DNA of 64,000 nt, from the NCBI GenBank assembly GCA_021772895.1, contig JAJFLC010000012.1:1-64000 (forward strand), written 5' to 3'. Source of the stretch: Mariprofundaceae bacterium (GTDB lineage Bacteria > Pseudomonadota > Zetaproteobacteria > Mariprofundales > Mariprofundaceae). The notes under the pieces were generated by a model, which had not been told where the DNA came from, searched no databases, and worked only from the letters and a program-made list of their open reading frames with translations. The position numbers and the translations under genes are program-made. Shown piece after piece: positions 29,147 to 58,895 of the stretch (position 1 is its first letter; each line of letters begins with the position of its first letter).

Positions 29147-29297
29147 ATTGTCAAAAAACTGCGAGCTTTGGTCCGTTTATGAGCCAACAAAATTAGTTTC
29201 TGATTTTGTAAGTAACGGCAAAACCGCGTTTTGACTTTGCATAACCCTATTCGTGCAGAACGCATGCATAGACAATAAAAACAGTACGGAGCGAGTG

Positions 29298-30218
29298 ATG
29301 GATTTTGCTGATCGTGATGGCCTCATCTGGTTTGACGGAAAAATGGTGAATTGGCGTGATGCCAAGGTCCATGTCCTGACGCATACCCTGCATTATGGCA
29401 TGGGCGTGTTTGAAGGTGTCCGCGCCTACCATGCCGATCAGGGCACCGCGATTTTCCGTTTGCAAGAGCACACGGATCGTTTGTTCCGTTCAGCGCATAT
29501 CATGAACATGCCAATGACGTTCTCCAAGGATGAGATCAATGCAGCTCAACTGGCAACGATCAAAGAAAACAATCTGGATTCTGCCTACCTGCGCCCCATG
29601 GTTTTTTATGGCTCAGAAGGTATGGGCCTGCGCGCTGACAATCTAAAAACCCACGTCATTATTGCCGCATGGGAATGGGGCGCATATCTGGGTCAGGATG
29701 CACTTGAAAAGGGCATTCGCATCCGCACATCCTCTTTTACACGTCACCACGTCAACATCTCGATGTGCAAGGCCAAGGCCAATGGGCAATACATCAATTC
29801 CATGCTGGCACTCTCCGATGCGCTGCGTGATGGCTATGATGAAGCACTACTACTGGATGTAGATGGCTTTGTTGCCGAAGGCAGTGGAGAGAATTTTTTC
29901 ATGGTTTATAACGGTGTGATCTACACGCCGGAGCTCACCAGTGCACTTGATGGCATCACCCGTGCCACTGTCATACAACTGGCCGAGGAAGCGGGTTACG
30001 AAGTTCGTGAAAAACGCATCACCCGTGATGAGGTTTATGTTGCCGATGAAGCCTTTTTCACTGGCTCAGCCGCTGAAGTCACACCAATCCGTGAACTTGA
30101 TGGCCGTACCATCGGTTGCGGTTCACGCGGTCCAATTACCGAAAGATTACAGAAGAAATATTTCGATGTGGTTCACGGTAAAAGCAGTGCTCATACTGAT
30201 TGGCTAAGTATCGTATAA
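29298..30218 (+). CDS. ilvE: Branched-chain amino acid aminotransferase
   Basis: A class IV PLP-dependent transaminase making Val, Leu and Ile from their keto acids. It starts MDFADRDGLIWFDGKMVNW. The PLP lysine lies in KAKANGQYINSM, and the EGSGENFF and GITRATVIQLA phosphate-binding blocks are present. The ATG at 29298 follows a GGAG sequence and gives 306 residues, the normal length. Confidence 0.96.
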   Translation: MDFADRDGLIWFDGKMVNWRDAKVHVLTHTLHYGMGVFEGVRAYHADQGTAIFRLQEHTDRLFRSAHIMNMPMTFSKDEINAAQLATIKENNLDSAYLRPMVFYGSEGMGLRADNLKTHVIIAAWEWGAYLGQDALEKGIRIRTSSFTRHHVNISMCKAKANGQYINSMLALSDALRDGYDEALLLDVDGFVAEGSGENFFMVYNGVIYTPELTSALDGITRATVIQLAEEAGYEVREKRITRDEVYVADEAFFTGSAAEVTPIRELDGRTIGCGSRGPITERLQKKYFDVVHGKSSAHTDWLSIV

Positions 30219-30241
30219 TCGACTGCTTCAACCCACAAAAA

Positions 30242-30272
30242 AAGCCGTCCTGCTACTGTTACAGGACGGCTT
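30242..30272. terminator. Bidirectional terminator between ilvE and Shedu-like gene
   Basis: An 11-bp perfect stem (AAGCCGTCCTG with CAGGACGGCTT) spans a 9-nt loop. On the minus strand it is followed by a run of eight T, making it a strong terminator for the comM/nuclease transcript. On the plus strand it can also end ilvE. Confidence 0.85.
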
Positions 30273-30326
30273 ACTTCTTCCAGCAAGTCAATAGCTTTAC
30301 TTTTCCCACATTCAAGAAACTAAAAT

Positions 30327-31040
30327 TCAGTCATACCAATTCTTCTCTTTATTAAAAAAATAACTGATAAGCTGTTTATCAAGTGTTGGCACCCTACTTT
30401 TCAAGTCCACCATATATTCTATCTGTCGAATAAAGGCATCATATGTTCGTATTTGTAAAGACTTAGAGTCTCGATTAAAACTAGCTTTTTTGGCTTGTTT
30501 ACCAGGACACTCAAGAAGCTCTTTTTCTCTTCCGTACAACAAAATACCATTTGGTCGAGTAAATGAAGATAAGCCTAAATTATCACGAATATAAGCTTGG
30601 TTTCGATCACAATAGTCGATGTAACCCTCGATCTGACTTATGCTATCTTGCAGAGCTTGCGTTTGTGTAATGCGCCCACTGGAAGATTTCTTGTATAATT
30701 TATACCTTGGTGACTTTAACTCTACGACCCACCAAGTCACCCCATCAGAATTGTCTCCTGCGAACAAATAATCCGGTATTAATCCTTTGCCATTTATACT
30801 ACTCGGTTTGATTTGTGCTTGAGGCACAATCCATGTGTCATGATGACCAGTTCTAAAAAAACCTGATGTAAATGCGAGCAAAGACAATCTTTTTCTAAAA
30901 AACATATCGATAGAGTGTTCATTGTCATTTCTTACAAGCCTTAATAAAAGGCCTCTAATATCCTGAGCCGAGAAATCGTAACGATCAATTTTGAATGTGC
31001 TTGGTGGATAATCACCTCCATCAGCATTGCAATAGTTCAT
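30327..31040 (-). CDS. Shedu-like (DUF4263) PD-(D/E)xK nuclease, putative anti-phage protein
   Basis: The 237-residue protein has the DUF4263/SduA core around residues 85-175: IPDYLF supplies the Asp, WWVVELKSP the ExK pair, and ALQDSISQIEGYIDYC the Gln-containing helix, followed by the strand NGILLYGRE. This is the order of the Shedu nuclease domain. The ~80 residues before it (helical, with DMFFRKRLSLLAF) may be a sensor or oligomerisation segment. Its ATG overlaps the comM stop by 4 bp, and a terminator follows. AT content is higher than in its neighbours, consistent with recent acquisition. The nuclease-fold call is firm; the defence role is inferred from family membership. Confidence 0.75.
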   Translation of the reverse strand: MNYCNADGGDYPPSTFKIDRYDFSAQDIRGLLLRLVRNDNEHSIDMFFRKRLSLLAFTSGFFRTGHHDTWIVPQAQIKPSSINGKGLIPDYLFAGDNSDGVTWWVVELKSPRYKLYKKSSSGRITQTQALQDSISQIEGYIDYCDRNQAYIRDNLGLSSFTRPNGILLYGREKELLECPGKQAKKASFNRDSKSLQIRTYDAFIRQIEYMVDLKSRVPTLDKQLISYFFNKEKNWYD

Positions 31041-32545
31041 CTATCATCCTCTTCTCCTCGATATTGAAGCGCTTCAGCCACATGATTACTTGAGACTTTT
31101 GCCTCTCCCTCTATATCCGCAATGGTACGCGACACTTTTAAAATTCGATGGTAACTGCGTGCTGAAAGACTAAATCGGGACATCGCTGCATCCAGCAATT
31201 TGGCACCCTCACTATCCGGCTTGGCAAACGTCTCAAGCTGTGAAGGCGTAAGCCTTGCATTCACCACACCATCGCCCTGACGGGCATATTGGCGCTGGCG
31301 CGCTTCATTCACCCGCATGGCAACTGTGATGGATGACTCACCGACTGTCATGCCCATCAACTCTTCTTTTTCGACAGGCGGCACATGCACACGAAGATCG
31401 AACCGGTCTAATAATGGGCCGGATATCTTTGTTCGATATCTGCGAACCTGAATACCTGAGCACTGACAATTTCGGGTCGGGTGCCCAAGGTACCCGCAGG
31501 GACATGAATTCATCGCTGCAACCAATTGAAATTGGGCCGGAAACTCAAGCGTATCAGCAGCCCTTGCAATGCAAACATGCCCATTTTCAAGCGGTTGGCG
31601 AAGCACCTCCAATACCTGTCTACGATACTCAGGCAATTCATCCAGAAAAAGTGTGCCATGGTGTGACTTGCTCACTTCACCCGGCTTGGGAACACTGCCA
31701 CCGCCAATCATGGCAACATCCGAAGCGCTGTGGTGAGGAGCTCTGTATGGTGGTGTCGCAGACATGGGTGCACGGCCTGATTCACCTGAAATACTATAGA
31801 TACGTGCCACTTCAAGTTTCTGTGCAGAGGTTAACGGGGGAAGAATACCCGGCAAGCGGCCCGCTAGCATACTTTTACCAACACCCGGTGGCCCACTCAA
31901 CAGAATGTGATGAAACCCTACAGCAGAAATTTCCAATGCCCGACGGGCCTGCTGTTGACCACGTATATCTGCCATGTCGGGCACGTTTTGTGTCGCGATG
32001 CTCTCAGATAACTTTGCCTCATATATAGGTAACAACGCTCTCCCAGCCAAATGACTTGCGACCGCCAGCAGGTTGTTTGCAGGTAATACATCAATGCCAT
32101 CCACCACGGACGCTTCATCCGCATTGGCTTTAGGAAGAATGATTGATCTAAAACCCTGGGCACGCGCAAAAAGTGCCAAAGGCAGAGCACCGGATATTGA
32201 ATTAAGCCTGCCATCCAACGCCAACTCCCCAATCATGAAGGGAAGCGGTTCATCCGTCTGTATCTGCCCGGATGCAATCAACAGACCCATGGCAACGGGA
32301 AGGTCAAAATAAGAACCATCTTTGCGTTTATCGGCAGGTGAAAGGTTCACAGTGATATGACGGAGTGGAAATTCGAAGTTGGAGTTTAAAAGAGCCGCAC
32401 GGACACGATCACGGGACTCACGCACAGCACCTTCAGCAAGACCAACCATAGACCATGAAGGCAAACCTCGTGAAAGGTCTACCTCAACATCGACAGGCTC
32501 AGCATCAAGCCCGCGCAATGCGGCTGAAGCCAAACGAGCTAACAC
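31037..32545 (-). CDS. comM: YifB/ComM family Mg-chelatase-like AAA+ ATPase
   Basis: A 502-residue protein with an N-terminal Lon-protease-like fold (about 1-170), an AAA+ module with Walker A GPPGVGKSMLAG near 220 and Walker B TLFLDELPEY, the CPCGYLGHP zinc-like motif, and a C-terminal Mg_chelatase_C domain. ComM is a helicase promoting branch migration during natural transformation. GTG start. It lies 12 bp after ubiK and is translationally coupled to the Shedu-like gene. Together with type IV pilus genes nearby it hints at competence. Confidence 0.94.
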   Translation of the reverse strand: MLARLASAALRGLDAEPVDVEVDLSRGLPSWSMVGLAEGAVRESRDRVRAALLNSNFEFPLRHITVNLSPADKRKDGSYFDLPVAMGLLIASGQIQTDEPLPFMIGELALDGRLNSISGALPLALFARAQGFRSIILPKANADEASVVDGIDVLPANNLLAVASHLAGRALLPIYEAKLSESIATQNVPDMADIRGQQQARRALEISAVGFHHILLSGPPGVGKSMLAGRLPGILPPLTSAQKLEVARIYSISGESGRAPMSATPPYRAPHHSASDVAMIGGGSVPKPGEVSKSHHGTLFLDELPEYRRQVLEVLRQPLENGHVCIARAADTLEFPAQFQLVAAMNSCPCGYLGHPTRNCQCSGIQVRRYRTKISGPLLDRFDLRVHVPPVEKEELMGMTVGESSITVAMRVNEARQRQYARQGDGVVNARLTPSQLETFAKPDSEGAKLLDAAMSRFSLSARSYHRILKVSRTIADIEGEAKVSSNHVAEALQYRGEEDDR

Positions 32546-32557
32546 AACTAAAACGAC

Positions 32558-32812
32558 TTATGAATGGTCTTTCAGCTTTGCTTCCAGCTCTTTGACTCGT
32601 GCATCCAGTGTTGCAAGTTCTTCACGTGCTCTGTTCAACATGGTTTCCTGAACTTGCATACGCTCATGAGTAACCACATCAAAGTGCTCCAGCGCCCCTT
32701 CAACGATGCCGCGCACTTGTGTTTCTGCTTCCGTTTTCACACCACTAAACATACGCAGGCCACCTGCGACTTTTTCAGCGATATCATCCAATATTTCATT
32801 ATTTACAGCCAT
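32558..32812 (-). CDS. ubiK: Ubiquinone biosynthesis accessory factor UbiK
   Basis: An 84-residue BMFP-family protein (former YqiC): N-terminal amphipathic helix (ILDDIAEKVAGGL) and a C-terminal coiled coil (NRAREELATLDARVKELEAKL). UbiK assists late aerobic ubiquinone hydroxylation with UbiJ. GGAGG precedes the ATG. ubiX lies two genes upstream, which fits a ubiquinone theme. Confidence 0.93.
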   Translation of the reverse strand: MAVNNEILDDIAEKVAGGLRMFSGVKTEAETQVRGIVEGALEHFDVVTHERMQVQETMLNRAREELATLDARVKELEAKLKDHS

Positions 32813-32847
32813 CTTCCACCTCCATCAATGAACCCAGGCTAAGCATC

Positions 32848-33435
32848 TCATTTGTTTGTGGATGCAGCAAGACTCCCTTTCAGGTATGCTGTTTTACCAG
32901 AGGGCATTTTAATACGTAACCACGAAGACTTCCATATCTCATTCACATCAAGGAATTTTCCCGGCAGATACCAGCCAACCTGTTTTGACTTTACGTTCTT
33001 CTTCTCCCGGATGTTTTTATAACGCGCAAAGTTAAACCGGGCAGAACGCTTCACCCTCTCACTCTCTTTCCTGATCGTAATAATTAACGCACGTTCGACT
33101 GACTCTTCACGCATACCCCCGTCTTTCACCTTGATTGAAACCGTTGTCAGCTTGTTGGTCTGTTTTTTTAAGCCAATCTTTCCGTCCAGATTTTTATTCC
33201 CAAAGCTCATTAAATAGCCATCTTCGATCGGCTCAAGAACACTGACATTCAGATCCGTTTTTTGTAATCCTCGCTGTGTGGCCACAAGCATCGTACGCAT
33301 GCTAGCTGGGAAACTTTCTTCTTCCCCCTGAAACATATAAACCAGACCTTCAACCGCTGTTCCAGATACTGCTGTCACAATCGCACAGCCTGACATCATC
33401 AATGAAACCAAAGCTGTAATAATTATGCGCCCCAT
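32848..33435 (-). CDS. Lipoprotein with DUF3568-like domain and C-terminal SH3-like segment
   Basis: The 195-residue product has a lipobox (MMSGC, Cys17). The first half resembles DUF3568 lipoproteins (a short strand/helix unit with DLNVSVLEPI). The C-terminal ~55 residues (VGWYLPGKFLDVNEIWKSSWLRI...GKTAYLKGSL) look like a bacterial SH3-like domain. Overlaps the end of ubiX by 13 bp. Function unknown; probably an outer-membrane-anchored envelope protein. Confidence 0.75.
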   Translation of the reverse strand: MGRIIITALVSLMMSGCAIVTAVSGTAVEGLVYMFQGEEESFPASMRTMLVATQRGLQKTDLNVSVLEPIEDGYLMSFGNKNLDGKIGLKKQTNKLTTVSIKVKDGGMREESVERALIITIRKESERVKRSARFNFARYKNIREKKNVKSKQVGWYLPGKFLDVNEIWKSSWLRIKMPSGKTAYLKGSLAASTNK

Positions 33436-34037
33436 CGTTTAGATCCTCCATCATCAATATCCAAATGATCCATCACGCGATCCACAACAAAGTTCACCAG
33501 TTCATCTACCGATTCAGGGCGATGATAAAAACCGGGCATGGCTGGAATCATGTCGACGCCCATGTGGGAAAGTTTAAGCATATGTTCCAGATGAATACTG
33601 GAAAGTGGTGTTTCCCGCGGCACCAGAATCAAGTGACCACGCTCTTTCAGCATGACATCAGCTGCACGCTCCAAAAGATTATCTGAAATACCTCCGGCAA
33701 TGCGGGCCAATGAGCCCATCGAACAGGGAATTACCACCATATGGCGTATCCCTGCCGAGCCGGATGCCACTGGAGAAAACCAGTCTGAAAGGTGATAACT
33801 CTTCAACAGCTCAGAAGAGATATTCAAATGTTTAGCCAATGCCTGAACAAGCTGTGCTGGCTCATCTGGTAAACACAAATCAACTTCCTGTTTTAAAACC
33901 ACACGTGCAGCATCAGAAAAAAGAAGATGTTGCTTAACGCCCACAGCAGCCAATCGCTGAATCAGACGCAATCCATAGGCCGCACCTGAAGCGCCTGTCA
34001 TCGAAACAACAATCTGTTTCACTGGATTTGTTTCCAA
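33423..34037 (-). CDS. ubiX: Flavin prenyltransferase UbiX
   Basis: The enzyme makes prenylated FMN, the cofactor of the UbiD decarboxylase of ubiquinone synthesis. It has the N-terminal VVSMTGASGAAYGLRL flavin motif, PCSMGSLARIAGGISDNL and the VPRETPLSSIHLEHML block. Start is uncertain: the frame opens with TTG at 34037, while a GTG five codons later (34022) is better placed after a GGAAA sequence. About 200 residues, normal length. No ubiD is in the window. Confidence 0.95.
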   Translation of the reverse strand: METNPVKQIVVSMTGASGAAYGLRLIQRLAAVGVKQHLLFSDAARVVLKQEVDLCLPDEPAQLVQALAKHLNISSELLKSYHLSDWFSPVASGSAGIRHMVVIPCSMGSLARIAGGISDNLLERAADVMLKERGHLILVPRETPLSSIHLEHMLKLSHMGVDMIPAMPGFYHRPESVDELVNFVVDRVMDHLDIDDGGSKRWGA

Positions 34038-58085: not shown

Positions 58086-58895
58086 TTAATTCCAGCCAAC
58101 TGCTTTTTCTGTCATGTTTCCAATATGTGATTCTACAACCCATCCAAGATGGGAAGAGAATAAAAATGTTGACGGAAGGCCCTGGCCTTTCTTCGATTGC
58201 TTAGAATGAATTGTTATTTCAAACACGTTGCCCGGCAACTTAGAGTTATTTAGCAGATAGCCCTTCATCTGTTTTGTCACCTCAAATTCCAACGTTTTTG
58301 TTCTTTCCTTTCCTTTTTCCATAGAATTCTCAGAGGTATGTTGAATGATCAGTTTATTTCCGACCTTTAGAGGAAATAGCTGACCCGATATTTTTTCTAG
58401 CTTTGTTGTTTTGGACTCAATGGTCATTGTTCGAGAAAATGTTGCTGGTAAAAACTTAAGATTATTTGAAGTCTTCATATTCATTTGATTAAGGCCCAAT
58501 AACTCGATGAGTCCACCCGCAGAAACTCCAGAACCATTAGAGCGTAATTCATGCTCAAGCGTTGATCCTTTATCAATAAATCCGCTTAAAAACAAATTAT
58601 AAGCCACATCTTGTGTTTCAAAAGTCTGAGTCGCAGCAGTAGAAACTCTAGCAAGACCAGAGCTTACTTCATCAACCCTATAGTGACCGTATGTAACACT
58701 TGTTGGTTTCTCCTGAGTGAAAGCCACCATACCTAACTCTTTGAATCTTGGCGTAGGGAAATTCAATAATTTTGCCGACTCTTTAACCTGATTTGGAATT
58801 TGAGAAAATGAAACCCTATTTACATCTTCAGAAGCAATAACAGAATAATTTGAGCAAGCCAACATGCTTAAAACAATTAAAATAAATTTTTTCAT
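58086..58895 (-). CDS. Secreted protein of unknown function, 269 residues
   Basis: The product has an N-terminal signal (FILIVLSMLACSNYSVIA). A lipobox reading, LACS with Cys14, is possible, in which case it is a lipoprotein. The rest is beta-rich with no catalytic motif I recognise; GWVVESHIGNMTEKAVGW closes the chain. It is monocistronic and AT-rich compared with its neighbours. A 14-bp palindrome lies 39 bp upstream. This looks like an accessory gene. Confidence 0.7.
   Translation of the reverse strand: MKKFILIVLSMLACSNYSVIASEDVNRVSFSQIPNQVKESAKLLNFPTPRFKELGMVAFTQEKPTSVTYGHYRVDEVSSGLARVSTAATQTFETQDVAYNLFLSGFIDKGSTLEHELRSNGSGVSAGGLIELLGLNQMNMKTSNNLKFLPATFSRTMTIESKTTKLEKISGQLFPLKVGNKLIIQHTSENSMEKGKERTKTLEFEVTKQMKGYLLNNSKLPGNVFEITIHSKQSKKGQGLPSTFLFSSHLGWVVESHIGNMTEKAVGWN

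Follow-up and report, generated by a model that had tools for sequence, protein, structure and literature searches.

The locus behind comM in this Mariprofundaceae genome raises the question of why a putative defence nuclease should lie directly downstream of a gene associated with DNA uptake. The earlier note on this DNA had offered two answers, either the gene is a lone immigrant, or defence is functionally coupled to DNA uptake. We favor the former, and put at roughly 80% the probability that sduA is a horizontally gained single-gene Shedu anti-phage nuclease, made of the core alone, which sits in a variable slot behind comM and is probably read from the comM transcript. The whole stretch of DNA analyzed, 64,000 nucleotides, is referred to below as the window. 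The relevant features are as follows.

29253-30218, forward strand: class IV aminotransferase gene (ilvE-like), the convergent neighbor of sduA, assigned with Pfam and linked to comM in two congeners too
30242-30272, reverse strand: terminator-like hairpin (12 pairs) followed by a T run, between sduA and ilvE, from terminator and repeat searches
30327-31040, reverse strand: sduA, compact Shedu-family PD-(D/E)xK nuclease of 237 aa, supported by ORF, Pfam, PADLOC, fold and alignment
31037-31040, reverse strand: ATGA, the 4-nt overlap of the comM stop and the sduA start, read from the sequence
31037-32545, reverse strand: comM, YifB/ChlI-type AAA+ protein of 502 aa, from ORF and Pfam
31048-31051, reverse strand: GAGG within comM, a possible ribosome-binding site 7 nt 5' of the sduA ATG, proposed from the sequence

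The affiliation of the protein was determined by profile searches. Pfam PF14082 (SduA_C) matched it with an E-value of 8.4e-12 and a score of 46 bits (cut-off 27), and the PADLOC SduA model PDLC00397 covered residues 10-208 with an E-value of 4.6e-50. No NCBIfam profile matched, and PDB sequences searched by profile yielded nothing meaningful (the top entry was uS4, E 0.23), so a search at the level of fold was needed. A model was predicted with AlphaFold2 from an 11-row alignment (pLDDT 80.3, pTM 0.81). Its top PDB match in Foldseek was the Shedu protein of B. cereus (8ti9, 4.1e-07). In VIA-align, the model gave Z 16.2 and an rmsd of 3.2 over 177 aligned residues with 8ti9, and Z 11.9 and an rmsd of 4.1 over 182 residues with E. 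coli SduA (8ps4), whereas the next non-Shedu structure, FokI, reached Z 6.9. The predicted fold is thus a PD-(D/E)xK fold like that of the solved Shedu proteins, and the comparison with SduA structures suggested in the earlier note came out in its favor.

To examine the active site, 26 SduA proteins were aligned, among them those of 14 of the 16 PF14082 loci outside the window's genome (L058 and L059, whose domain matches are partial, were omitted before counting) and, as an addition, the protein of a genome of the same family, G262. The arrangement characteristic of the Shedu family (D, E/D-x-K, Q) was found in the window protein, with D90, E107, K109 and Q136 all present. Across the alignment, D90 and Q136 were conserved in 26/26 proteins, position 107 was E or D in 26/26, and K109 was retained in 24/26. 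The order of residues read by eye in the earlier note, with Asp in IPDYLF, then ELK, then Gln in SQIEGY, was correct. Pfam, PADLOC, fold and motif agree that 30327-31040 encodes a Shedu-type (DUF4263/SduA) nuclease, and the window SduA is a member of this already known family.

The protein is compact. The nuclease domain of B. cereus SduA (8ti9, 8ti8) belongs to the same Pfam family, SduA_C, and shares the fold at 13% identity, but the match begins only at its residue 184 (model residues 21-216 align to 184-379), and the N-terminal region is missing in the window SduA. In the same way, residues 21-218 align to 204-408 of the E. coli enzyme (8ps4, 8ps5), a type I Shedu, which has the nuclease fold in common with the window SduA but carries an N-terminal DNA-end clamp without counterpart in it. 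Type I Shedu is described as having an N-terminal regulatory domain (PMC12137116; PMC12409362), and the N-terminal region of E. coli SduA as a clamp that binds and senses DNA ends (summarized in the review PMC12904381). With the nuclease domain filling residues 21-216 of 237, there is no room for such a regulatory or sensor domain ahead of the nuclease. As modeled, the window SduA consists of nothing but the nuclease core and lacks the sensor that type I Shedu carries at its N-terminus. The name type II is used for single-protein Shedu in one review (PMC12409362).

The nearest relatives were 10 cyanobacterial proteins (L033-L042) from genome contigs, with 44-54% identity. These and the window protein were all matched by PDLC00397 (11/11), and HH at positions 66-67 was common to 12/12 compact members, including that of G262. 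The genomic neighbors of the cyanobacterial copies differ among the 10 loci (close relatives aside) and from those in the window, as is expected of a single-gene system; a scan of ten proteins found among them tRNA synthetases, a Mur ligase, a DNA methylase, XisH and XisI. Three of the 10 carry C-terminal additions (DUF6888 or BrnT). At L036:5986-7109 and L039:5986-7109 (Chlorogloea, Aliterella), compact SduA carries DUF6888 as a C-terminal fusion, and the next ORF, which overlaps it by 4 nt, encodes DUF6887; the DUF6888/DUF6887 pair may act as a module partnering the nuclease. At L040:5536-6727 (a Crocosphaera MAG), the SduA ORF continues into a BrnT toxin domain (1e-26), after which comes a 67-aa ORF. 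In the close relatives L041 and L042, SduA ends before BrnT, and we read the arrangement at L040 as a fusion or the insertion of a toxin-antitoxin pair. The compact SduA of G262 (L060:69-2234, 35% identity) lies near a contig end and is adjoined by an ORF that combines a Schlafen AlbA_2 with a RecG-C-like domain. When 14 compact SduA proteins were placed in a tree, the window protein stood on its own branch beside two groups holding cyanobacterial proteins and fell in no starred set, and G262 was placed elsewhere on a long branch; the tree therefore settles neither donor nor direction.

The distribution of sduA among relatives of the genome is sporadic. None of 60 relatives searched had a match at E <= 0.001, while comM (E <= 1e-80) was found in 55 of them (56/61 when the window's genome is counted). 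The search of the class returned SduA matches in 3 of 78 genomes, namely the window's own, G262 (35%) and G124 (26%). When 398 genomes of the phylum were searched with the family alignment, two matched (the window's own and G262); with Pfam PF14082, 17 matched, the window's own included. The composition of the gene is foreign as well: its GC content is 37.0%, whereas the window ORFs average 46.7% (sd 2.9), and its GC3 is the lowest among 56 ORFs (of 58, two lying opposite other genes being omitted). Low GC alone is not decisive, as a single further ORF, 58086-58895, has an equally low value. That ORF encodes 269 aa, has the lowest GC of all those measured (36.8%) and no Pfam match; it is possibly another immigrant.

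Traces of the event that brought sduA were sought in several ways. ORFs, Pfam and a repeat search revealed no transposase, integrase or repeat marking an insertion, and no tRNA genes were found in the window. Target-site duplications or inverted repeats around sduA were considered and rejected, as besides the hairpin there were just repeats of 10-18 nt, read as chance. A viral origin was also set aside, with no relative among viral contigs or phages. A plasmid search with SduA gave two distant matches (38% and 31%). The same genome contains another SduA-like match (G000:C4:246776-246988, E 9.5e-4), which was rejected; it has an internal stop, is missed by PF14082 and runs antisense within an ORF of L002 that, from its translation, we take to be pyruvate dehydrogenase E2-like.

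The slot itself was then read in congeners. G001 and G003 share with the window the order of the aminotransferase gene and comM, and the proteins are 93-94% (over the part of the aminotransferase present) and 86-87% (ComM) identical. The space between the two genes is occupied by an unrelated ORF, lipoprotein-like and ~200 aa long, whose start likewise lies within the end of comM. At the DNA level, the similarity between window and congeners tails off at the stop codon of comM and is back near the end of the aminotransferase gene. The lipoprotein-like ORF (L004:906-1508, and L005) has no Pfam match, and a search for it in the window's genome found none. A third congener, G002, had no comM match at the threshold used and no match to this ORF. 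The congener assemblies are 69-83% complete, so sduA could be present elsewhere in them; the slot was read directly in G001 and G003. Over 30 comM loci read, the window's included, the gene behind comM varies widely. At six of these (L008, L009, L017, L021, L028 and L030), the ORF just behind comM has a type IV prepilin-like start (FTLIELMIVVAIIGILA), named from reading of the sequence, and pilin genes next to comM might point to a real connection with DNA uptake. Foreign DNA at comM is also known from the AbaR islands of Acinetobacter baumannii; there, as PMC7508600 describes it, a large island interrupts comM, whereas in the window comM is intact and followed by a single gene, with no genes of an island or transposon. 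Absence from all 60 relatives, foreign GC and a slot that differs in congeners together speak for the lone immigrant of the earlier note.

Whether the newcomer is functional was judged from its reading frame and expression signals. A passenger without present function, i.e., a recent arrival neither usefully expressed nor protective and heading to decay, would fit a single-copy, sporadic gene, and promoter-like sites in the region were not above chance (3 found, 5.0 expected). This explanation is nonetheless unlikely: the frame is full-length with all four motif residues intact, the gene forms part of a transcription unit, and a plausible ribosome-binding site precedes its ATG (31038-31040 in the ORF list and sequence). 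Terminator-like sites in 30150-33500 numbered 6 against 3.1 expected. It is probable that sduA is transcribed together with comM.

The junction with comM bears on the second answer of the earlier note, a functional coupling. The product of 31037-32545 contains Mg_chelatase, ChlI and Mg_chelatase_C, which we take to be the domain set of ComM/YifB proteins. As the earlier note had observed, the sduA start overlaps the comM stop in the same direction, the comM TGA at 31037-31039 sharing ATGA with the sduA ATG, and translation of sduA may on this account be coupled to that of comM. No RNA structure beyond chance was detected at the overlap (z 1.58). In a functional coupling, SduA would be made with ComM and would check or cut taken-up DNA, or branched and linear recombination intermediates, during branch migration. 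Besides the overlap, several facts are in keeping with it. The genome encodes a ComEC-type DNA channel (PF03772, 5.9e-56), so transformation is possible in principle. ComM is presented as the canonical branch-migration helicase of Gram-negative bacteria (PMC11612176), and phage T6 is reported in a review to escape Shedu through mutations in UvsW, a helicase of Holliday branch migration (PMC12904381).

The comparative data argue strongly the other way. Of 45 same-strand neighbor pairs examined in the window, 9 have 4-nt overlaps, which makes the comM/sduA overlap routine here, and since the congeners' lipoprotein-like ORF overlaps comM too, the overlap is a property of the slot in the genus and not of sduA. 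That slot holds an unrelated ORF in the congeners and many different genes in the family. Flanks were searched for comM over up to 6 kb per side at the 10 cyanobacterial loci, several shortened by contig ends, and over 1.5 kb per side at the 16 other PF14082 loci. The results were 0/10 and 0/16, and comM was also not at L060 or L061; among all loci of this search it adjoins SduA at the window's own locus only. The association is thus seen in one genome, and sduA does not accompany comM across relatives as a competence gene of the comM operon would. No paper in the collection searched mentions Shedu and comM together. We consider the coupling very improbable and read the placement of sduA beside comM as chance.

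There is about as little to be said for a stronger version, in which a sensor-less Shedu is wired into the comM unit and ComM supplies substrate recognition in place of the N-terminal domain. If it were true, ends or branches of incoming DNA processed by ComM would license cutting by SduA, and the escape of T6 via UvsW would be a related phenomenon. The weakest explanation is that sduA encodes a nuclease of the comM operon that has been domesticated for housekeeping or DNA repair, which the intact motif would allow (the gene being under selection or recent) but which is disfavored by the foreign composition of sduA and by its lack of conservation in relatives having comM: inspection of the comM locus, proposed in the earlier note, revealed no universal conservation, and a housekeeping role is thus not indicated.

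In the preferred reading, that of a horizontally gained Shedu nuclease, sduA would have taken the position held in congeners by the lipoprotein-like gene of the variable slot. We infer an anti-phage role by analogy with characterized members; in VcSduA, the nuclease mutant K557A is reported to lose anti-phage activity (PMC12137116). We likewise infer the oligomeric state and the co-transcription with comM. By analogy with the family, SduA would oligomerize through its PD-(D/E)xK core and remain inactive until it encounters susceptible DNA, for example the free ends of linear phage DNA. It would then cut this DNA using metal ions held by D90 and E107, together with K109. End-dependent cutting by the oligomer is taken from the family, whose sensing of DNA ends is summarized in a review (PMC12904381). 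For the compact protein, end sensing is a guess, as the N-terminal clamp of the E. coli enzyme has no counterpart in it.

With this locus, a compact Shedu nuclease with good support is added outside cyanobacteria, in a genus in which the family is otherwise unseen. If the preferred reading is right, it would also indicate that a lone defence gene can replace another gene precisely at a core gene's stop codon and leave no trace of a mobile element. The compact clade, predicted to consist of the nuclease only, may offer a simple system in which to study how Shedu without an N-terminal sensor discriminates between self and foreign DNA.
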